Below are positions 38,407-47,206 of a stretch of DNA of 64,000 bases, one piece after another; within the stretch, counting starts at the first letter, position 1, and every line of letters starts with the position of its first letter. The stretch spans positions 3,917,501 through 3,981,500 of the forward strand of contig NZ_JAJLMN010000001.1 of assembly GCF_021730615.1 (NCBI RefSeq), given 5' to 3'. The stretch is from Lichenibacterium dinghuense (GTDB lineage: Bacteria > Pseudomonadota > Alphaproteobacteria > Rhizobiales > Beijerinckiaceae). A program made the position numbers and the translations under genes. The notes beneath the pieces are model-generated. The model was given only the letters and a program-made list of their open reading frames with translations, searched no databases and had not been told where the DNA came from.

Positions 38407-40034
38407 GGCTTCGGCGCCTCGCCGCGGCGCTGCTCGCGGCGGCACTCGGCGGCTGCGACCTCGAACCCGGCCGCGTCGACGACATCGTCCACGCCGACGG
38501 CGTCGAGCCGCGGCGCGTCGAGACCGCGGCCGGCCCCGTGGTGGGCGCCGCGGCGGCGGGCGGGCAGGCCTTCCTCGGCATCCCCTACGCGGCGCCGCCG
38601 GTCGGGCCGCTGCGCTGGCGCGCCCCGCAGCCGCCGGCGCCCTGGACCGAGCCGCGGGACGCGACGCGCCTCGGCCCTTCCTGCCTGCAGAACCTCGCCC
38701 TGTCGGCGCAGCTCGGCGGGGCGGGCGGCGGCCCGACGCTCGGGCAGGAGGACTGCCTCACCCTCAACGTCTACGCGCCGCCGGGCGCCGCGCCGGACGC
38801 CCGCAAGCCCGTGATGGTGTGGATCCACGGCGGCGCGCTCGTGCTCGGCACCTCCGGCCAGTACGACCCGAGCGCGCTGGCGCGCCGCGAGGGCGTGGTC
38901 GTCGTCACGGTCAACTATCGGCTCGGCGCGCTCGGCTTCTTCGCCCATCCCTCGCTCCGCGGCGAGCCGGGCGAGGGCGCCTTCGCGCTGCTCGACCAGC
39001 GCGCGGCCTTGGCCTGGGTGAAGCGCGACATCGCCGGCTTCGGCGGCGACCCGCGCAGCGTGACGGTCTTCGGACAGTCGGCCGGCGCCTGGAGCGCCTG
39101 CTACCAGATGGCCTCTCCGGGCTCGGCCGGGCTGTTCCAGCGCGCCATCCTGCAGAGCGGCGCCTGCGTGACCCCGGAAACCAGCGTGGCGCCCGAGGTC
39201 GCGGAAGCGGGCGGCTTCCGCATGGCCGGCGAGCTCGGCTGCGCGGGCCCCGACGCCCTCGCCTGCCTGCGCGCCCTGCCGGCCGCGGACGTGGTCGAGG
39301 CCGCGCCCGAGCGCCCCGGCGTCACGGGGCCGAACTCCTGGGCGCCCGTCGCGGGGCTCGACGTGCTGCCGCTCGCGCCCCGCGCCGCCTTCGCGTCGGG
39401 CCGGTTCGCCCCCGTGCCGGTGATCGACGGCACCAACCGCGACGAGGGCCGCCTCTTCTCCTACCTGCGCGGGCTGCGGGCCGACCTCCTGACGGAGGCG
39501 AGCTACGGGGCCGAGATCCGCCGCCTCTTCGGCGCGCGGGCGCCGGCCATCCTCGCCGCCTATCCGGCGTCGCGCTTCGACTCGCCGCGCGCCGCCTATG
39601 CGGCCGTGCTGACCGACGGCTTCTTCGCCTGCCCGGCCCTCGACCTCGACCGCCTCGTCGGCGCCCGCGCGCCGGTCTACGCCTACGAGTTCGACGACCC
39701 CGACCCGCCCTTCGCGTTGCCGCGCCTGCCCTTCTCGGGCGGTGCGGGCAGCTATCACACGGCCGAGATCGCCTACGTGTTCGACCGGCCCTGGGCTCTG
39801 GCGGACCCGGCGCGGTTCGACGACGCGCAGGCGCGGCTGTCGGCTGAGATCCAGGACCGCTGGGGGGCCTTCGCGCGGGGGGAGGCGCCGTGGCATCCGG
39901 CGGCATCGGATGCGGCGGGTGCCGTCGTCGCGCTGTCGCCGGGCGTGCCAGGCACGGACGCTTTCGCGCCGAATTTCGCCGCGCGGCATCGCTGCGGCGT
40001 CTGGAGCAGCCTGCGATCTGTCGATCCACGCTGA
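38403..40034 (+). CDS. Type B carboxylesterase lipoprotein
   Basis: 543 residues. TTG start overlapping the DedA stop; the first residues (MRLRRLAAALLAAALGGC) are a lipoprotein signal with lipobox LGGC (Cys18), so the enzyme is probably anchored in the envelope. The type B carboxylesterase fold is clear: FLGIPYAAPPVGPLRW, EDCLTLNVYAP, IHGGALVLG (oxyanion hole), nucleophile Ser226 (FGQSAGAWS), Glu348 (NRDEG) and His452 (SYHTAE). Hydrolyses unknown carboxylic esters. Coupled to dedA, which suggests a shared transcript rather than shared function. Confidence 0.88.
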   Translation: MRLRRLAAALLAAALGGCDLEPGRVDDIVHADGVEPRRVETAAGPVVGAAAAGGQAFLGIPYAAPPVGPLRWRAPQPPAPWTEPRDATRLGPSCLQNLALSAQLGGAGGGPTLGQEDCLTLNVYAPPGAAPDARKPVMVWIHGGALVLGTSGQYDPSALARREGVVVVTVNYRLGALGFFAHPSLRGEPGEGAFALLDQRAALAWVKRDIAGFGGDPRSVTVFGQSAGAWSACYQMASPGSAGLFQRAILQSGACVTPETSVAPEVAEAGGFRMAGELGCAGPDALACLRALPAADVVEAAPERPGVTGPNSWAPVAGLDVLPLAPRAAFASGRFAPVPVIDGTNRDEGRLFSYLRGLRADLLTEASYGAEIRRLFGARAPAILAAYPASRFDSPRAAYAAVLTDGFFACPALDLDRLVGARAPVYAYEFDDPDPPFALPRLPFSGGAGSYHTAEIAYVFDRPWALADPARFDDAQARLSAEIQDRWGAFARGEAPWHPAASDAAGAVVALSPGVPGTDAFAPNFAARHRCGVWSSLRSVDPR

Positions 40035-40129
40035 ATCAAGGCCGATCGGTCGATGGCATGATGCGGTGCGCCGGCTTCGCGCGGCAAATGTTGAGAGACT
40101 CACTAACAGTGGCATCGGCGGCCTTCGTA

Positions 40130-40159
40130 TTGACCGCCCGCTGACCCGAGCACTATCAA
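40130..40159 (+). promoter_or_regulatory. Candidate sigma-70 promoter of the lanthipeptide-type precursor gene
   Basis: TTGACC (40130-40135), an 18-bp spacer and TATCAA (40154-40159), in a noticeably AT-richer stretch about 100 bp upstream of the precursor start. It is the best -35/-10 pair in the 226-bp gap. Confidence 0.4.
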
Positions 40160-40163
40160 GAGA

Positions 40164-40196
40164 TGCAATCAAAGATCGATTAGGTCGAAGATTGCA
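40164..40196. promoter_or_regulatory. Inverted repeat downstream of the candidate promoter
   Basis: TGCAATC (40164-40170) and GATTGCA (40190-40196) form perfect 7-bp arms 19 bp apart, placed just after the -10 candidate. It could be an operator for a dimeric repressor or the foot of a 5' UTR stem. No regulator gene lies in the cluster. Confidence 0.4.
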
Positions 40197-40260
40197 CTTT
40201 TTGCGGGTGCTTCTTCGCGTGTGGGCGTTGAGCATCCCATGAGCGAGGGGAGCGGACGAC

Positions 40261-41400
40261 ATGACGCAAGACATGGGCGGCGGCGCAGGGGCACAGGGCG
40301 GTGGACAGGGCTTCCCGTTCACGATGCCTCCGTTCTGCCCACAGGCGGCTGGTGGTGCACAGCCGATGGCGCAGGGCGGCGCCGGGACGCCCATCCCGAC
40401 CCTGAACTGCACGGGGCTGCCATGCATCATCACCCAGATCGTCGGCTGCAATAATGCGGCGCCCATGGCTCAGGGCGGAACGCCCATCACCTTCACGTTC
40501 CCTCCGCTCTGCGGGCCCCATCAGGGCGGTGGCGCACAGCCGATGGCCCAGGGGGGCGGTATGGGCACGCCCATCCCGACCCTGAACTGCACGGGGCTGC
40601 CGTGCGTCATCACTCTGATTGCCGGCTGCAACAACGCGCCGGCCCCGATGGTACAGGGCGGCGCCCAGGGCGGGACGCCCATCACCTTCACGTTCCCCCC
40701 GCTTTGCGCGTCCCATCAGGGCGGTGGCGCACAGCCGATGGCCCAGGGGGGCGGTATGGGCACACCCATCCCGACCCTGAACTGCACGGGGCTGCCGTGC
40801 ATCATCACCCTCGTCGCCGGCTGCGGCAGCGGTGCGCCGATGGCGCAAGGTGGACAGGGCGGGGCGGGGACGATCTTCCCGACTCTGCCGCCGATGTGCA
40901 ACCTGCCGCATACGCTCCTGCCGCCGCTCTGCCCGCCCAACCAGGGCGGTGCGGCGCCGATGGCGCAGGGTGGACAGGGCGGTGCGGGCACCGTGTTCCC
41001 GACGATGCCGATCCTGTGTCAGATCACCCAATTCCCGATCTGTCCGCCCCATCAGGGCGGTGGAGCGGCACCGATGGCGCAGGGAAGCGGCGGCCTGGGG
41101 ACGATCCTGCATACGCTCGTCTGTCCGACCGGCCTGCCGTGCATCGTCACCCAGATCGCCGGCTGCGGCGGCGCGGGTCCGGTCGCTCAGGGGGGGCAGG
41201 GCGGCGCGGCGCAGACGCCGATCCCGTCGCTGATGAATTGCCCGCCGACGCTGATGCTGTGCTCGGTCTTCGGCTGCGGCAACCAGGCCGGCGGTCAGCC
41301 GGCGATGGCGGGCGGTGGCACCGCGCCCCAGGCCACCCTCGGCCCGTTCGAGTGCAACATCACGATCTTCTCCATCTGCACGCCCGTCTGCGGTCGCTGA
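40261..41400 (+). CDS. Repetitive Cys/Thr-rich multi-core lanthipeptide-type precursor, 379 aa
   Basis: Candidate substrate of the modification enzymes encoded just downstream. It has no signal peptide or membrane helix; it is built of short Thr/Pro/Cys segments separated by Gly-rich spacers of the form P-M-A-Q-G-G (starting at residues 35, 68, 94, 129, 159, 193, 233, 271 and 307, with small variations). There are 25 cysteines, and every one has its own Thr or Ser 2-5 residues upstream, e.g. T47/C50, T51/C55, T58/C63. One segment type (TPIPTLNCTGLPC-x8-type, residues 43-63) occurs three times nearly unchanged (also 103-123 and 168-188) and twice diverged (281-302, 319-339). Shorter types end TFPPLC or PTLPPMC. 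Only the first 17-20 residues could be a leader. GGGGAG precedes the ATG. That it is modified is inference. Confidence 0.8.
   Translation: MTQDMGGGAGAQGGGQGFPFTMPPFCPQAAGGAQPMAQGGAGTPIPTLNCTGLPCIITQIVGCNNAAPMAQGGTPITFTFPPLCGPHQGGGAQPMAQGGGMGTPIPTLNCTGLPCVITLIAGCNNAPAPMVQGGAQGGTPITFTFPPLCASHQGGGAQPMAQGGGMGTPIPTLNCTGLPCIITLVAGCGSGAPMAQGGQGGAGTIFPTLPPMCNLPHTLLPPLCPPNQGGAAPMAQGGQGGAGTVFPTMPILCQITQFPICPPHQGGGAAPMAQGSGGLGTILHTLVCPTGLPCIVTQIAGCGGAGPVAQGGQGGAAQTPIPSLMNCPPTLMLCSVFGCGNQAGGQPAMAGGGTAPQATLGPFECNITIFSICTPVCGR
40480..40824 (+). repeat. Tandem 195-bp coding repeat inside the precursor gene
   Basis: The 150 bases at 40480-40629 recur at 40675-40824 (period 195 bp) with only a few substitutions, many of them silent, encoding residues 74-123 and 139-188. 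The closeness at DNA level points to recent duplication or gene conversion. A third, partial copy of the longer segment type lies at 40384-40449. Confidence 0.88.
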
Positions 41401-41593
41401 CCGCGGACTGACGGGTCCGCATCCGCCTAGCCGTCGATCCGGCCGGGCGGGTGAGGCCCGCTCCGATGACGGGGACGGCCGCAGTCCGCGACCGTTCCCC
41501 CGGCCCAGGGCCGGAGATCGAGACCCGCACGATGCGGCTCCGCGGCGCCCGGCATCGGTCGCGCGAGAGACCGCGGCTCGAGATTGGTGACAG

Positions 41594-42703
41594 ATGTTTC
41601 TGACTGCATCGAACCTGTTCTTCTACCTCCGAGACGCCGGGCTGTGCTCAGCAGCGGACGTCGTCGGCGAGGACTTCGCCGTGTCGGAGACCGGACGCCG
41701 CAACCGCAACTTCGTCGTCAGGCGCGCCGGCCCGCACTCCCTGTTCGTCAAGCAGATCCCGATGATGCACCCAGAGGTCGTCGGATCGCTGCGGCGCGAG
41801 GCGGCCTGCGCGCAGCTCGCGCAGGAGGCTGGCGAGGGCTTGCGCCTGCGCTCCAGCATGCCCGTCCTGCTGCGCTACGACCCTGTCGCCCACATTCTGG
41901 TCTACAGATTCGTCGAGGGCGCCGAGAACCTGAACCAGCGCGTGGTGCGCGACGGACCGCTGACGATCGGACAGGCGGAGCGGATCGGGACGGCGCTCGC
42001 GGCCTGCCATTCGGAGACGGCGCGGCCCGGCGCGCTGCTCGGTCTGGCGCCGCTCCTCAAGGCGGAGCCGCCCTGGCTCTTCAACGTCGTCCAGCAGCCG
42101 CATGCGGTGATGCCGGGCATGAACGAGCCCCGTCGGCGCGTGATCGGCGCCCTGCAGCAGTGCCCCGAGGTGCTGAACGGGATGGAGCGCCTTCGCGCCG
42201 GCTGGCGTCGTCTCTGTCTCATGCACGGCGACGTCAAGTTCGACAACATCCTCGTCGGCGGTGCGGGCGACGATGCGATGCTCCTCATCGACTGGGAGCT
42301 GGCCGAGCTCGGTGATCCGCTTTGGGATGTCGCGAGCGCCCTGGCCGCGATCGTCCAACCCTGGCTCATCGGCGCCGTCGTGGCGGGCAAATCCGCGGCG
42401 CCGCAGGCCGCGGGCAGCGCGGTGGTCGACGCCGCCCGCGGGCTCTGGTCCGCCTATCTGAGCGCCGTCGACCCGTCCGCGGGACCGCCCGACCCCGACC
42501 TCCTCGCGCGCCTCGTCGGCGCGCGCCTCGTTCTGCTGGCGTTCGAGCTGCTGCCCGACGCCGTCGCGACATCGCCGCAGGTCGACCCGGTCCTGGCCCT
42601 GGCGAGATACTTCCTCGCGGCTCCCGCCGCGGCCCTCCTGTCCGTGTTCGGGATCGGAGGGGTCGCCGCCTCGGGTCGGCCGACGATGCGAGCCATCCCA
42701 TGA
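41594..42703 (+). CDS. APH-fold phosphotransferase, probable lanthipeptide Ser/Thr kinase
   Basis: 369 residues with an aminoglycoside-phosphotransferase-like kinase fold. Lys53 (LFVKQ) and Glu69 (LRREAA) fit the ATP-binding pair, catalytic Asp213 and Asn218 lie in LMHGDVKFDNIL, and Asp233 in LLIDWELAELGDPLWDVAS binds Mg. In class V lanthipeptide and thioamitide pathways such a kinase phosphorylates Thr/Ser of the precursor while a HopA1-like partner removes the phosphate. Here the HopA1-like gene follows with an ATGA overlap, which is why I favour that role over drug resistance. The gene begins 193 bp after the precursor; that gap holds no gene. Confidence 0.82.
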   Translation: MFLTASNLFFYLRDAGLCSAADVVGEDFAVSETGRRNRNFVVRRAGPHSLFVKQIPMMHPEVVGSLRREAACAQLAQEAGEGLRLRSSMPVLLRYDPVAHILVYRFVEGAENLNQRVVRDGPLTIGQAERIGTALAACHSETARPGALLGLAPLLKAEPPWLFNVVQQPHAVMPGMNEPRRRVIGALQQCPEVLNGMERLRAGWRRLCLMHGDVKFDNILVGGAGDDAMLLIDWELAELGDPLWDVASALAAIVQPWLIGAVVAGKSAAPQAAGSAVVDAARGLWSAYLSAVDPSAGPPDPDLLARLVGARLVLLAFELLPDAVATSPQVDPVLALARYFLAAPAAALLSVFGIGGVAASGRPTMRAIP

Positions 42704-43773
42704 ACGATCGCGACGACGCCGCGCCCTGGGCCAGGGGGGAGCGCATCGCGCGACTCCTCGCCGACGTGCAGATCACATCGCCGATGGCGTTCAGGTTCGG
42801 GAGCGGGCCGCAGATCTCCGCCGGAGACGTCGTTCCGACCGCTCCTGGAGCAGGACTGACGCCTGGTGTGGCCGCCCTGCGCGACGCGCTCGGCACAGCG
42901 CTCTACGCAGCCGCCTATATGCGTGACTACCGCGGGCCGGGTTACGACCCGGCCTCAATGCGGCGCAAGGTGGTGGCCGACCCGGCCTTCCTCAAGCGGC
43001 TCGACGCGCGCAATCCGAGCCGTGCCGCTTGGGAGCCCGGCTGGCGCGTCTTCTCGCGCGACCTCGACGGGTCCGTCCACGCGTCGAAGGGCGACCGGGC
43101 CATGAGGCTCCCGCCGGGCCGCTACGCCGCGGTCGGCACGCCGCGCTCCCCCGCGGTGGGAGACAGCGTCGAGCGCTGGCGTGACCGGAGCTCCCTCACC
43201 CATCAAGCAGGCTACTACTATGCATTCGGTGAAGCGCCGCCGAGCGATTACGATCTGGCACGTATCGGGCGCCTCTACTTCGACGGCGATGCTGAATCGG
43301 CCGCGTGGCTGCTCGGCGAGCTCGCCCCGCTTCTGAACCGCTTCGGCATCCCGTTCTGGTTCAAGTGCCCCGTGGACCCGGCAGCATTCGATCGCCTGGA
43401 CGCTTCAGTGCTCTACGTCGCGCGCCGCCACGTGCCCAGTCTGATCGGCCTCCTCGTCCCGCTCGCAAGCGATTTCTCACGGAGGTTGAGGGGGGGCGTC
43501 CCGCTCTGGACCGTGCCGCTCGTCGCGGGAGTCGGTGGCGCGGACGACCCCGGCACCGGTGAAAGCTTCGGCCAGTCGCGCTGCGCGCTCTTCGCGGCCG
43601 GCCTCGTCGATGCCTGGGCGAGGGGCCACCAGGACCCCGCGTCCCGCGCAGGGGCCGTCGCCGCGCGCTTCCGGGCGGCGGGCCTCGCTGCGGCACAGCC
43701 CCACCTCGCCCTGGGCCTCGTGGATGTCTACCCCGCCCTCACCAGCTCTGCCGTCAGGGAGACCGCCGCATGA
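42700..43773 (+). CDS. HopA1-like protein, probable phospho-Thr/Ser lyase
   Basis: 357 residues resembling the HopA1 effector family: ALYAAAYMRDYRG, a GWRVFSRDLDGSVHASKGD strand region (Lys130), RLYFDGDAESAAWLL (about 191-205), LLNRFGIPFWFKCP (211-224), DRLDASVLYVARRH and the C-terminal DPGTGESFGQSRCALF (283-298). HopA1-like proteins occur with APH-type kinases in class V lanthipeptide and thioamitide clusters, where the pair makes dehydroalanine and dehydrobutyrine. The gene is coupled on both sides by ATGA overlaps to the kinase and the LanC gene. Family placement is from memory of conserved blocks, not from a search. Confidence 0.78.
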   Translation: MNDRDDAAPWARGERIARLLADVQITSPMAFRFGSGPQISAGDVVPTAPGAGLTPGVAALRDALGTALYAAAYMRDYRGPGYDPASMRRKVVADPAFLKRLDARNPSRAAWEPGWRVFSRDLDGSVHASKGDRAMRLPPGRYAAVGTPRSPAVGDSVERWRDRSSLTHQAGYYYAFGEAPPSDYDLARIGRLYFDGDAESAAWLLGELAPLLNRFGIPFWFKCPVDPAAFDRLDASVLYVARRHVPSLIGLLVPLASDFSRRLRGGVPLWTVPLVAGVGGADDPGTGESFGQSRCALFAAGLVDAWARGHQDPASRAGAVAARFRAAGLAAAQPHLALGLVDVYPALTSSAVRETAA

Positions 43774-45071
43774 GCGTCGCCAGCTTCGAGAGTACGAGGT
43801 TCGCCGGTGGCCAGCGCTACCTCGACGTCGCCGACGGCATAGGATGTGCCCTGGTCCGGGAAGCCATATGGCAGGGCGATCGCTGCAATTGGCTGTGCTG
43901 GAACCTCGAGCCGGGCGCCGGCGGCGCTTTCGTGCCGGTGCTGAAGCCGGCGACGCCCGAGCTCTACAGCGGCGTGTCCGGCATCGCCCTGTTCCTGGCG
44001 CGCCTCCAGGCGGCGACAGGTGACCCCCACCAGAGGCGGGCCGCGCGGGGCGCCTTGCGACAGGCGTTGGCCGCGACCGCGGAATGGTGGCCGACCGGCT
44101 CCGGATTCTACGCTGGCCCCGTCGGGGTCGGCTGGAGCCTCATTCACATCGGCCGATCGCTGGACGATGAGGTCGCCATCGGTCGCGGGTTGGCGCTGCT
44201 CGAACGCGCGGCACGCGAGCCCGTCGCGCCGGGATTCTTCGACCTGCTGAACGGCCGCGCCGGCGCGGCCCTGGGCCTCGTCGCCGCGGCGCGGGCCTTC
44301 GGTCGCGGCGACCTCCTCGCGGGCGCGGTCAGGCTCGCCGAGGAGCTGGTCGCGGCGGCGCGGATCGCGGACGGCGCGATGTCGTGGCCCTCCGGCCTGG
44401 AAGGGCGCGACCTCCTCGGGCTGTCGCACGGCACGGCGGGAGCGGCGCTGGCATTGCACGAGGTCGCCGCAGCGGCGGGGCGCTCGGATTTTCGAGACGC
44501 CGCGCGCGCCTGCCTCCGTTACGAACGGGTCCACTTCGACCGATGGAAAGGCGGCTGGCCCGATTTCCGCATCCTTGCCGGGCAATCGGCCGGCGAGCCG
44601 ACCTATCCCTTCGTCTGGTGCCATGGCGGGGTGGGCATCGGGCTGTCCCGCCTGCGCATCCGCGAGCTCGACCCCGGCGACGCCGAGACCGCCGCGGAGA
44701 TCGATGCCGTGACGGCGGCCGTCACGGCGCGGCTCGCGCGAGGCGTGTCGGCGGAGGAGGACTTCTCCCTCTGCCATGGAGTCGCGGGGATCGGCGAGTT
44801 CCTCGTCGAACTGGCGGTCCGCGTCGGGCGGCCGGAGGCGCTGGAAGCCGCGCGCCGCATCGGCGACGTCGGGGCCGCCGGTTGCCACGACACCGGCAGC
44901 CCGTGGCGGTGCGGCGTGCCACAGGCTGGCGAGACACCGTCCACCATGACGGGCACGACCAGCATCGGCCTCCACTATCTGCGGCTGTTCGACCCCGCCT
45001 GCGCGCCCAGCCTCGCCCTGCCGACCGGCGACTCGCTGGATGTGGCGCAGCCACACCGCGTGGCGGCCTGA
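43770..45071 (+). CDS. LanC-like lanthionine cyclase
   Basis: 433 residues, an alpha/alpha-barrel LanC-family enzyme. All zinc ligands are present: Cys284 (FVWCHGGVGIGLSRL), Cys335 and His336 (FSLCHGVAGIGEFL); the catalytic-region His220 is in GLSHGTAGAALAL. Spacing matches NisC (C284, C330, H331). Repeated Gly-rich turns (LYSGVSGIALFL, FYAGPVGVGWSL, LLNGRAGAALGL) are the barrel repeats. Such enzymes add Cys thiols to dehydrated Thr/Ser to make thioether rings. It starts by an ATGA overlap with the HopA1-like gene. An intact zinc site argues for a real cyclase. Confidence 0.9.
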   Translation: MSVASFESTRFAGGQRYLDVADGIGCALVREAIWQGDRCNWLCWNLEPGAGGAFVPVLKPATPELYSGVSGIALFLARLQAATGDPHQRRAARGALRQALAATAEWWPTGSGFYAGPVGVGWSLIHIGRSLDDEVAIGRGLALLERAAREPVAPGFFDLLNGRAGAALGLVAAARAFGRGDLLAGAVRLAEELVAAARIADGAMSWPSGLEGRDLLGLSHGTAGAALALHEVAAAAGRSDFRDAARACLRYERVHFDRWKGGWPDFRILAGQSAGEPTYPFVWCHGGVGIGLSRLRIRELDPGDAETAAEIDAVTAAVTARLARGVSAEEDFSLCHGVAGIGEFLVELAVRVGRPEALEAARRIGDVGAAGCHDTGSPWRCGVPQAGETPSTMTGTTSIGLHYLRLFDPACAPSLALPTGDSLDVAQPHRVAA

Positions 45072-45109
45072 CAGCGGCCGATCCGTCGACACCAGATAGG
45101 AGCCCCATC

Positions 45110-46954
45110 ATGCCCGATGACGACCCGCGGCCTCGCTCCGCTCCCAAGCCATCGACGCAGCCAGGCCAGCCCGAACCGCAGCGACGCCTAGAGGGAGAGG
45201 CGCCCTCCGCGACGGGCGGGGGGGCGACGCCGCTTGAGCCAGCGCCTCTGTCGCCGCTCGCCGACGCTGCGATCTCCCCCGCTTCCACCCTTCCGCGGGG
45301 CGCCGACGCGACGGAGCCGCCCATCGATGTGGAGGACGCGGGCGGCTCCGGTTCGGGGGGCGGCGGACCTCCGCCGGCGCCCCCGGTCCCCGGCCCGCGA
45401 CAGCCCGAGCGCAGACGCCGCTTCGTGATCTCGCAACTCCTGGCGCAGCATCGCGACCGTCGAACGCGGTCCGACATGGTCGACCTTTTCGCGATGCGGC
45501 TGTCGCGCTCGATCCTGCCGAATGCCGACCTCGTGTCGGACGTCGCGGGCGGCGGCGCGGTGTCCCGGCGCGTCCTGGTCGTCGACGCCGATCCTGAGGA
45601 ACTGGCGGCCAAGCGCCAGGATCTCACGACGGACGCCGTCATCGAGCCCGAGAAGCCAAGGGTGCCCGCGGCGCTGGGCGCCGCATTGCGCTTCGCCCCG
45701 CCAATTCCGGTCCCGGTCCCGGCCGCGGACGGAGGCGCCGCCGGGCCCGGCGTGGGCGGCTCCGTGTCGCTGTTGCTGCGCGGACCGGAGGGCGAGCCGG
45801 TGCAAGGGGCCGTCGTGGTGGCGACGCTGCTGAAGCGCGGCTCGGCGTCCGAGACCTGCGCGGCGGGATCGCGGTCCGACGCCGGGGGGCGCGTCGCAAT
45901 CCCCTTCGACCCGGACATCTGGATGCCAGTCGCGGCCGCGGTCACGCCGGAGAACGGCTACTGGGGCACGTCCGTGCGCTCGCCGCAGGGCGGCCAGACC
46001 GTTCAACTGCTCCGACTCCCTCGCCGCGGGCCGTTCGGGTGGTGGCAGCTCCTGAGCGGGATGCCGAGCTACGACATCTCCGCCGGGCAAGGCCTCGTCG
46101 TGGGCGTGGTGGACACCGGCGTCGGACCGCACCCCTATCTCGACCACGTGCTCCCGGTCGGCGCCTTCCTGAACGGCAGGTTCATGCCCGGCGTGGAGGA
46201 GGGCCGGGACGCCTCGGATCACGGAACACACGTGAGCGGGCTGATCGCCGCCCGGCCCGCGCCGGGCAGCGGCGACTACGGCGGGATGTCACCTGGCGCG
46301 GAGGTCAGGATGGCGAGGGTCTTCGCGCCGGATCGCCTCGCCAACCAGGGCGACATCGCCCTCGCGGTGTCGTCGCTGGCCTCGACCTACAACGCCGACC
46401 TCATCAACCTCAGCCTGGCCGGGGAAGCGTCGGAGATCGAGCAGGACGCCATCATCGTGGCGCGCCGCGAAGGATCGCTCTGCGTCGCCGCGGCGGGCAA
46501 CGGCGGGGGAGGCCCTGTCAGCGCACCCGCGTCCTACCCGGAATGCGCGGCTGTTTCCGCGCTCGGGCTGCTCGGCAGCTTCCCGCCTGACATCGACGCC
46601 TCCGCATCCCTGCCGGGAACGCTCGACAGGTTCGGCGTCGGCGGCCTCTACCTCGCGGCGTTCAGCAACGCCGGACCCGATCTCGCCTGCGCGGCGGCGG
46701 GCGCGGCCGTGATCTCGACCGTGCCGGGGTCGCTGCCGGGCTCCCCGGCCTACGCCGAGATGAGCGGGACCTCGATGGCGGCCCCCCTCGCCGTCGGGGC
46801 GCTGGCGGCCTTGCTGTCCCGCGACGCGACCTACCGCGCCATGCCTCGCTCGGCCGCACGGGCGGACTACGCCGCCGCGGCGCTCGCGAGCCGGGCCATG
46901 GCGGTGGGGCTGGCGCGGGTCTTCGCCGGCGCCGGCCTCGCGCGAGCCAGGTGA
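45110..46954 (+). CDS. Subtilisin-like S8 serine peptidase, probable processing protease of the RiPP locus
   Basis: 614 residues. No signal peptide; the first about 100 residues are Pro/Gly-rich and disordered. Residues about 104-185 (VLVVDADPEELAAKRQ ... VIEPEKP) look like an inhibitor-I9-type propeptide, 216-303 like an Ig/carboxypeptidase-regulatory-type beta sandwich (SVSLLLRGPEGEPVQGAVVV), and 325-610 are the peptidase: Asp335 (GVVDTGVG), His371 (DHGTHVSGL), Asn464 (AAAGNGG) and Ser555 (MSGTSMAAPLA). AGGAG lies eight bases before the ATG, 38 bp after the cyclase gene. A role in cutting the modified precursor is inferred from position; lanthipeptide LanP proteases are also subtilisins. 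Confidence 0.85.
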   Translation: MPDDDPRPRSAPKPSTQPGQPEPQRRLEGEAPSATGGGATPLEPAPLSPLADAAISPASTLPRGADATEPPIDVEDAGGSGSGGGGPPPAPPVPGPRQPERRRRFVISQLLAQHRDRRTRSDMVDLFAMRLSRSILPNADLVSDVAGGGAVSRRVLVVDADPEELAAKRQDLTTDAVIEPEKPRVPAALGAALRFAPPIPVPVPAADGGAAGPGVGGSVSLLLRGPEGEPVQGAVVVATLLKRGSASETCAAGSRSDAGGRVAIPFDPDIWMPVAAAVTPENGYWGTSVRSPQGGQTVQLLRLPRRGPFGWWQLLSGMPSYDISAGQGLVVGVVDTGVGPHPYLDHVLPVGAFLNGRFMPGVEEGRDASDHGTHVSGLIAARPAPGSGDYGGMSPGAEVRMARVFAPDRLANQGDIALAVSSLASTYNADLINLSLAGEASEIEQDAIIVARREGSLCVAAAGNGGGGPVSAPASYPECAAVSALGLLGSFPPDIDASASLPGTLDRFGVGGLYLAAFSNAGPDLACAAAGAAVISTVPGSLPGSPAYAEMSGTSMAAPLAVGALAALLSRDATYRAMPRSAARADYAAAALASRAMAVGLARVFAGAGLARAR

Positions 46955-46960
46955 CGGCCG

Positions 46961-47203
46961 ATGCCGCCCGGCGGCCGGACATACATCCTGGCGCCCCGCC
47001 CCGGAGCGCCCATTCCCGCGGACTGGAAGGACGCCGTCGCGGCGCTGGCCGGCGTCCAGGTGCTCGGCCGCGACGGTCCCGGGCTGCAGATCTCCGCGGC
47101 GCCGGAGGTCGCGGAGGCGGTGCGGGCGAGGTTCGGCGGCGTGCTTCGGATCGAGCCCGTCAGGTCCCGCGCCCCCCGACGCGGGTCGGGACCTGCCCTG
47201 TGA
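46961..47203 (+). CDS. Small protein, possible stand-alone I9-type propeptide/inhibitor of the peptidase
   Basis: 80 residues, starting 6 bp after the peptidase stop. The pattern RTYILAPRPG - helix (ADWKDAVAALAGV) - strand (QVLGRDGPGLQIS) - helix (PEVAEAVRARFG) - strand (VLRIEPV) fits the beta-alpha-beta-beta-alpha-beta fold of subtilisin propeptides, and the terminal IEPV resembles the VIEP of the propeptide-like region in the adjacent peptidase. It may fold or restrain that peptidase. No signal peptide. Function is inference; the gene ends only 4 bp from the convergent glnA stop. Confidence 0.6.
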   Translation: MPPGGRTYILAPRPGAPIPADWKDAVAALAGVQVLGRDGPGLQISAAPEVAEAVRARFGGVLRIEPVRSRAPRRGSGPAL

Positions 47204-47206
47204 GGA

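Follow-up and report, generated by a model that had tools for sequence, protein, structure and literature searches.

Class Vb lanthipeptides, as outlined for the mSmoA type (LanK, LanY and LanC) in PMC12291118, rely on a stand-alone APH kinase, a HopA1 lyase and a LanC cyclase. The precursors of ribosomally synthesized and post-translationally modified peptides (RiPPs) are given as typically 20-110 amino acids (aa) long in PMC9415263, and the CaoY class V survey, as described in PMC9486802, took open reading frames (ORFs) of fewer than 110 residues. The accessible portion of a LanC-domain survey (PMC11251773) reports precursors of 29-100 aa, seven bridges in geobacillin I and elgicin, and one lanthipeptide predicted with eight; it also mentions tandem duplications and, in some peptides, a repeated 15-mer, so small-scale repeats are not new. 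Here we describe a cassette in a 64,000-nucleotide stretch of the Lichenibacterium dinghuense genome (contig NZ_JAJLMN010000001.1, positions 3,917,501 to 3,981,500; hereafter the window), in which genes for an APH-fold kinase, a HopA1-like protein and a LanC follow that of a giant repetitive protein. This protein is very probably a precursor modified by the cassette enzymes, judging from the sequences. A preliminary description of the window, made from its letters alone, had regarded a stand-alone LanC beside kinase and HopA1 genes as unlike known lanthipeptides; class Vb, as far as PMC12291118 outlines it, fits this arrangement. The unusual precursor size and ring number claimed in the same description hold up: the window protein has 379 aa and 25 predicted rings, whereas precursor lengths in PMC11251773 range over 29-100 aa and bridge numbers do not exceed eight in its accessible part.

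The repeat protein contains 79 Gly, 53 Pro, 36 Thr, 25 Cys and six Ser among its 379 residues, with three charged residues (D, E and R; His not counted). It matches no Pfam family, and neither a charged leader nor a leader of known type is recognisable; it thus departs from a short precursor with a leader as sought in the CaoY survey described in PMC9486802 (379 aa vs <110 residues). The sequence GGGGAGCGG lies just 5' of the start codon and presumably acts as ribosome-binding site. All 25 Cys have their own Ser/Thr 3-6 residues upstream, located after the preceding Cys, at distances of 3, 4, 5 and 6 in five, seven, 11 and two cases, respectively; the nearest upstream ring partner is Thr for 23 of them and Ser for two. 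In 5000 shuffled versions of the protein a mean of 7.4 and a maximum of 15 Cys are placed for rings, and reading the spacing in the reverse direction places 8/25. The main repeat, which holds TLNC, TGLPC and T-x4-C, would form three consecutive small rings. Repeated core units are present within one precursor, as in multi-core RiPPs. In-frame conservation of the repeats is weakly supported: the nine PMAQGG-type spacers differ by 84 synonymous and 24 non-synonymous changes, and three long copies (a fourth, divergent one excluded) by 10 and 8, both sets having been picked by protein pattern, which masks changes at fixed positions and biases the counts toward synonymous.

The enzymes encoded downstream are assigned by matches that all exceed the curated Pfam cut-offs: the kinase to PF01636 (E 4.1e-17, 63.2 bits vs a cut-off of 23.2), the HopA1 protein to PF17914 (E 2.6e-21, 76.7 bits vs 22.7), LanC to PF05147 LANC_like (E 9.4e-46, 156.4 bits) and the subtilase to PF00082 Peptidase_S8 (E 4.3e-30). 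In alignments of seven sequences, the window included, the kinase residues D213, N218, D233 and E235 and the subtilase catalytic triad are invariant, and the HopA1 residues R191, K222, R232 and Y239 are so both in seven and in 11 sequences. The latter are spaced like R187, K219, R229 and Y236 of CaoY, a match made by spacing without a CaoY alignment. According to the available text of PMC9486802, elimination by CaoY is lost in K219A, nearly lost in R187A and inefficient in R229Q, while Y236 was assigned through an alignment with SpvC. The HopA1 fold model, with a predicted local distance difference test (pLDDT) value of 36.5, is too poor to be of use. LanC retains C284, C335 and H336 in the alignments (WCHG, SLCHG). 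From these residues the window enzymes look active. Among NCBIfam models LanC scores best to the cyclase part of LanM, with TIGR03897 matching at profile positions 546-932 only and reaching 233 of 304 bits, short of a class II assignment. The class III/IV models match the LanC protein alone and below cut-off, and lyase, kinase and cyclase are three genes here, not the one protein of classes III and IV (LanKC/LanL).

Two further genes complete the cassette. The N-terminal part of the subtilase also aligns with subtilases adjoining repetitive precursors. The 80-aa protein has no Pfam family match; AlphaFold2, run on the single sequence, predicts the beta-alpha-beta-beta-alpha-beta order of subtilisin prosegments (mean pLDDT 79.8), and Foldseek returns 1spb_P with probability 0.99 and E 0.12, the best match in the PDB having E 0.039. 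The model weakly suggests a prosegment-like protein, such folds being common, and to that extent the earlier I9-like label survives. Much else in the preliminary description was borne out. The ORFs confirm six genes in one direction at the places given, with ATGA overlaps at 42700 (kinase/HopA1) and 43770 (HopA1/LanC); the profile hidden Markov model check that it proposed was run and matched APH, HopA1, LanC and S8; Cys284, Cys335 and His336 of LanC and the HGDVKFDN and LIDWE motifs of the kinase are intact; and composition and a Tandem Repeats Finder (TRF) period of 195 agree with a Cys/Thr-rich repeat protein of 379 residues. Table 1 collects the features.

Table 1. Features of the cassette, in window positions.
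Feature	Position	Strand	Evidence
Giant repetitive precursor (putative), 379 aa	40261..41400	+	ORF, composition, ring-spacing test
Tandem DNA repeat inside the precursor gene	40351..40824	+	TRF period 195, 2.5 copies, score 643
Nine P[MV][AV]QG[GS] spacers between Cys/Thr cores such as GTPIPTLNCTGLPC	40363..41196	+	Segmentation, copies listed
APH-fold kinase, LanK-like	41594..42703	+	PF01636; intact HGDVKFDN and LIDWE
HopA1-type phosphoThr/Ser lyase (predicted), LanY-like	42700..43773	+	PF17914; R191, K222, R232, Y239
Stand-alone LanC cyclase	43770..45071	+	PF05147; zinc ligands C284, C335, H336
Subtilase (S8)	45110..46954	+	PF00082; catalytic D335, H371, S555
80-aa protein, prosegment-like predicted fold (weak)	46961..47203	+	AlphaFold2, Foldseek
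Cassette-bearing stretch, missing in two sister species	40035..47206	.	tblastn/blastn of flanks and cassette proteins vs L061, L062

Relatives of the cassette provide additional clues. An enzyme set of this kind was found at 17 loci (the window, L010, L011, L021, L023, L024, L028, L040-L046, L050, L051 and L068), of which L045 breaks off inside HopA1, so that no LanC is seen there. Repetitive precursors are present at 12 of them, L042 and L043 keeping only the precursor end at contig ends, and fall into five groups with different repeats: the window, the genus of the PQTISFAQ repeat, L046, L050, and L051 with L068. GCPSTSTC arrays, too, are among the repetitive precursors that stand beside relatives of the window enzymes.

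The PQTISFAQ genus is represented by seven genomes (L028, L040-L045), with MYGYPQTISF-type starts where uncut and arrays of PQTISFAQ or PGTISFAQ. A kinase-HopA1 fusion follows the array in 7/7 loci and LanC in all six reaching that far; a subtilase related to that of the window is complete at five loci (E 4e-105 to 8e-115) and truncated at a sixth (L042). Contiguous runs in the five uncut arrays comprise 16, 16, 20, 12 and 19 units, each run with 1-3 protein variants. Codon counts are less biased when made on whole genes, or on copies and runs taken by DNA identity or contiguity, and the G947 and G1221 precursors, compared position by position over the entire gene, differ by 51 synonymous and three non-synonymous changes in 203 codons. 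Pattern-picked units, in which several positions are fixed by the pattern, give 263, 276 and 366 synonymous differences and zero others in G947, G1221 and G1223, 325 and 36 in G1225, and 88 and 31 in G1226. The five uncut precursors hold 3-4 Cys vs 37-61 Ser/Thr; ring spacing fits 1-3 of the 3-4 Cys, the same as in shuffles, and is uninformative there. In L041 (9238-13189) a family-5 solute-binding protein gene overlaps the S8 gene and precedes a GAF-histidine kinase; solute-binding and histidine kinase families again lie 3' of S8 in L044 (8454-14000), with DNA matching ClpV/TssH (type VI secretion) beyond. It is conceivable that these neighbours sense or take up the product.

The remaining repetitive precursors are more dispersed. 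That of L046, from another genus in the same family as the PQTISFAQ genus, is a Thr-rich array of 435 aa from the chosen start, with 139 Ser/Thr and 0 Cys, and the absence of Cys coincides with a LanC that lacks the zinc ligands (WVHG and AQASG in their place). A RiPP maturation radical-SAM C-methyltransferase (TIGR03975, E 1.5e-163, above cut-off) is encoded 3' of this array (L046:11599-13617). L050, from another class of the same phylum, encodes a precursor ORF of 459 aa that includes 47 Cys and a number of ambiguous residues, and L051, from the same class, a 390-aa precursor from the chosen start whose CKHVMWTAGCTF and DCGNVLTTLACTL cores contain 32 Cys; each precedes kinase, HopA1 and LanC genes. 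Ring spacing is found for 47/47 Cys in L050 (reverse 42; shuffles 24.0) and for 20/32 in L051 (reverse 17; shuffles 10.3). On a plasmid of Aliiroseovarius crassostreae (L068), an 80-aa protein with three C-x2-V-x-F-T-A-x-C-S/T cores is followed by kinase, HopA1 and LanC. Judged by eye, this core is that of L051, in three rather than eight copies, and both precursors end on a core; its occurrence at both copy numbers points to a multi-core logic.

The genomic setting is also informative. The six genes lie between a carboxylesterase-like gene (named by eye), ending at 40034, and glnA (so annotated in the matching record), which lies from 47207 on the opposite strand. Among plasmid records the window glnA is nearest to that of Methylobacterium bullatum (84%), and the nearest glnA records make an alphaproteobacterial host probable. 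In 2/5 sister species (G469 and G406) the site is empty: the carboxylesterase gene adjoins glnA, 57 and 136 bases separating the two stop codons, and tblastn and blastn find no match to the cassette proteins there. In the other three sisters the carboxylesterase gene does not adjoin glnA and no cassette lies in the stretch read. The window LanC finds no match in any of the five sisters, one match only in its own genome, and matches in 5/397 family genomes, its own included. The cassette is gained or lost as one unit among the sisters. Promoter and terminator searches gave no match in the cassette, and the only RNA family in the window is one tRNA.

In this context, we put forward class Vb-type dehydration and cyclization of a giant, leader-poor, multi-core precursor, followed by subtilase processing, as the likely function of the cassette. 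The kinase would phosphorylate many Thr and few Ser in the cores, and the HopA1-type lyase would eliminate the phosphate to give dehydrobutyrine and a little dehydroalanine. The zinc LanC would then add each Cys to a dehydro-residue 3-6 positions before it, resulting in small (methyl)lanthionine rings that do not overlap, as many as 25 in all, with three consecutive ones in the main repeat. The PMAQGG spacers, rich in Gly, Ala and Gln, would hold the cores apart and probably be repeated binding or cutting sites. The subtilase, aided or restrained by the 80-aa prosegment-like protein, would then cleave the modified protein, with several ring-bearing peptides as the most likely outcome. We infer all of these chemical steps, as well as the cutting and the role of the spacers, from gene content and sequence. 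For the release of separate peptides the chances seem to us evenly balanced. A signal, an antibiotic or a surface material are possible roles of the product. Action of kinase, HopA1 lyase and LanC on the repeat protein, as first suggested in the preliminary description, is the best interpretation, and such enzymes are met again beside other repetitive precursors.

In an alternative scenario, for which we see a smaller but real chance, the modified product is kept as one long, uncut chain of thioether rings, or of dehydroamino acids in the Cys-poor relatives, serving as a structural or surface polymer whose ends alone are trimmed by the subtilase. The PQTISFAQ units, which run without spacers and are near-identical in protein despite codon differences, as if all of them mattered together, would agree with such a chain, as would the near-zero charge (0-0.9%) of the window, L046 and PQTISFAQ precursors. 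Furthermore, no window-type subtilase is found by phmmer in the stretch read around L050 and L051, and none is annotated in the 10.7 kb that make up L068; cutting by S8 is thus not general, which again favours a polymer. On the other hand, a subtilase with an intact triad adjoins the window, PQTISFAQ and L046 loci, and the core at three and eight copies, the spacers differing in sequence and length, and the core-terminated precursors (by eye) speak against a polymer. A polymer-like chain was also what the preliminary description had proposed; the window repeats look like a multi-core precursor at least as much. That the whole chain should be a protein-sized ribosomal polymer, with some 25 methyllanthionine rings (in relatives, dozens of dehydroamino acids) and with the enzymes retained as lineages exchange one repeat for another, we consider somewhat unlikely.

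It is rather improbable that the enzymes chiefly dehydrate, with an ancestral LanC, few Cys closing rings and a dehydroamino-acid-rich repeat chain as product. The few or absent Cys and many Ser/Thr of the PQTISFAQ and L046 precursors and the zinc-less LanC of L046 would suit such a product, but the intact LanC of the window, its 25/25 ring-placed Cys and the ring spacing in L050 (47/47) and L051 (20/32) argue against it. Finally, an ordinary repetitive surface or disordered protein beside the enzymes by chance, to which its Gly/Pro/Ala-rich composition, the missing leader type and homologue and the weak codon evidence in the window would point, is very improbable: five groups, each with a different repeat, combine repetitive Ser/Thr-rich proteins with related enzymes, ring spacing is in excess of shuffles, and the whole cassette is absent from two sisters.

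Several observations, besides the loci where no window-type subtilase turned up, nevertheless weigh against the proposed dehydration, cyclization and processing. Between the two longest repeat copies, which were chosen by DNA identity, span 53 codons and lie 195 bases apart, six codons differ synonymously and four non-synonymously, with third positions accounting for 7/11 changed bases. The window precursor has no tblastn match in 72,556 plasmid records and matches only itself in its own genome. The kinase has its best NCBIfam match in the class V model LxmK, with 82.2 bits (E 3.5e-23), far below the equivalog cut-off of 315, and its sequence points to a relative of LxmK that is a different equivalog. 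No exporter is encoded in the cassette, the flanks having been checked via neighbouring ORFs only. The repetitive loci are partly non-independent, seven belonging to one genus, and most PQTISFAQ units are without Cys, so rings are not a feature common to the group; the many rings of the preliminary description are upheld by the Cys spacing of the window and not group-wide, and the subtilase is shared with some relatives and not with all. The correlation of zinc loss with a Cys-free precursor comes from one locus with a readable precursor (L046), and at L010 (8220-10871) the LanC part of a HopA1-LanC fusion is without zinc ligands (WASG, YASG) and no precursor was found.

The five non-repetitive loci (L010, L011, L021, L023 and L024) all have HopA1 fused to LanC, and small ORFs at these loci are candidate precursors. 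L011 has one of 66 aa with a GG leader. In a Nitrososphaeraceae archaeon metagenome-assembled genome (L021:6727-10145), genes for an APH kinase and for a HopA1-LanC fusion that retains its zinc ligands are accompanied by a 67-aa candidate in the opposite orientation; by sequence this archaeon appears to carry class V-like genes, with a binning error possible. On a plasmid of Deinococcus sp. QL22 (L023:5979-12024), a 201-aa ORF with a Cys-bearing C-terminus, outside the PLSDB gene table, precedes kinase, HopA1-LanC, S8 and an 84-aa protein, which is the gene order of the window in another phylum; in the leader domain L023 resembles L050 marginally (E 0.001). Rhizobium johnstonii pRlX3 (L024:1-17200) has a kinase, a HopA1-LanC fusion and a 101-aa candidate with four Cys, neighboured by an Ig-like protein gene of about 30 kb and a separate gene annotated as lantibiotic dehydratase. 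Two other plasmids carry parts of the set. In Paracoccus aestuarii (L027:4298-7496), a phosphotransferase and a HopA1 gene are followed by a gene without Pfam-detectable LanC; a 144-aa protein with a Cys-free C-terminus lies upstream and cas3 nearby. In Variovorax sp. WDL1 (L052:6935-8401), an S8 protease whose alignment covers 90% of the L028 enzyme at 29% identity adjoins a small protein with no annotated lanthipeptide gene beside it, so the protease type seems wider than the group.

PF17914 was detected in 8/397 genomes of the order (three, its own included, at E <1e-20) and 2/385 of the class, its own included. Profile A4 found 8/82 genomes in the order of G947, and profile A7 3/299 in the phylum (own included), 1/129 in the family of G1405 (G1405 itself), 1/48 in the order and class of G1322 (identical genome sets; G1322 itself) and 2/10 in the family of G245 (both already known). 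One scan of genome contigs with two peptide patterns retrieved a single locus, the archaeal L021, and one scan of viral contigs no relative. The plasmid records inspected were H1-H4 and H10 of 10 HopA1 records and H13 of eight LanC records (H11 being the record of H1). Among eight PF17914 genomes, L007 and L012-L015 (the latter four weak) have no match to the window proteins, and in L029 and L030, two of four other LanC genomes, the LanC region belongs to ORFs of 1079 and 1098 aa, and neither a kinase nor a HopA1 of the window type is matched there.

In the HopA1 tree the window groups with the seven PQTISFAQ loci (support 96/98) and wider grouping is weak; the repetitive group needs two changes, and L051 falls only weakly (62/77) with the others. 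The split of repetitive from short loci in the LanC tree is likewise weak (69/84). A rule pairing repetitive precursors with a separate LanC and short ones with a HopA1-LanC fusion is blurred by L068, which has a separate LanC and the 80-aa three-core precursor. A candidate spacer motif common to several precursors is enriched in the window and L046, but it was picked post hoc and L050, L028, L041 and L044 lack its long form, so we make no claim for it. A tblastn search of plasmids with the L028 precursor hit nine records, all at <60% identity and in repeat-rich places such as type VI secretion VgrG, which we read as low-complexity chance.

Lanthipeptide precursors are presumed to be short, leader-led and few-ringed, and mining filters are set accordingly; cassettes of the window type fall outside them. 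Among the matches listed, no report of repetitive class V precursors appeared in the open literature by title or abstract opening, a scope that mostly excludes subscription papers and preprints. If the enzymes act on these precursors, one could test how a substrate is recognized when it has no normal leader, how many rings a chain can take and how dehydroamino acids are used in repeat proteins. The same enzymes might also serve to cross-link designed repeat proteins or make them stiffer. Were the polymer scenario true, lanthipeptide enzymes would build a biological material rather than a small peptide antibiotic. The window cassette and its relatives would stretch the known limits of ribosome-made natural products of the lanthipeptide kind.

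Compared with described systems, as far as the cited texts present them, the window cassette resembles class Vb in its separate APH kinase, HopA1 and LanC, and differs in its 379-aa repetitive precursor with unrecognisable leader, the 25 predicted rings and the subtilase within the cassette, the Smo proteins having been compared by description only. With class Va (cacaoidin, lexapeptide, pristinin A3) it shares kinase/HopA1 dehydration and the R, K, R and Y of CaoY (PMC9486802); class Va, in contrast, is described without LanC and with aminovinyl-methylcysteine (AviMeCys) formation via LanD and LanX (PMC12291118), and the six cassette genes include no counterpart of these. Multi-core RiPPs such as the microviridins (PMC5934393) likewise have several cores per precursor, with a different chemistry; the window has about nine spacer-separated segments and its PQTISFAQ relatives 12-20 units. 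The most-bridged lanthipeptides also carry small rings in one chain, seven or eight in the accessible account as opposed to the 25 predicted here. Thus, as far as these sources go, the combination of kinase, HopA1 and LanC is known from class Vb, and the giant repetitive precursor is the new part.

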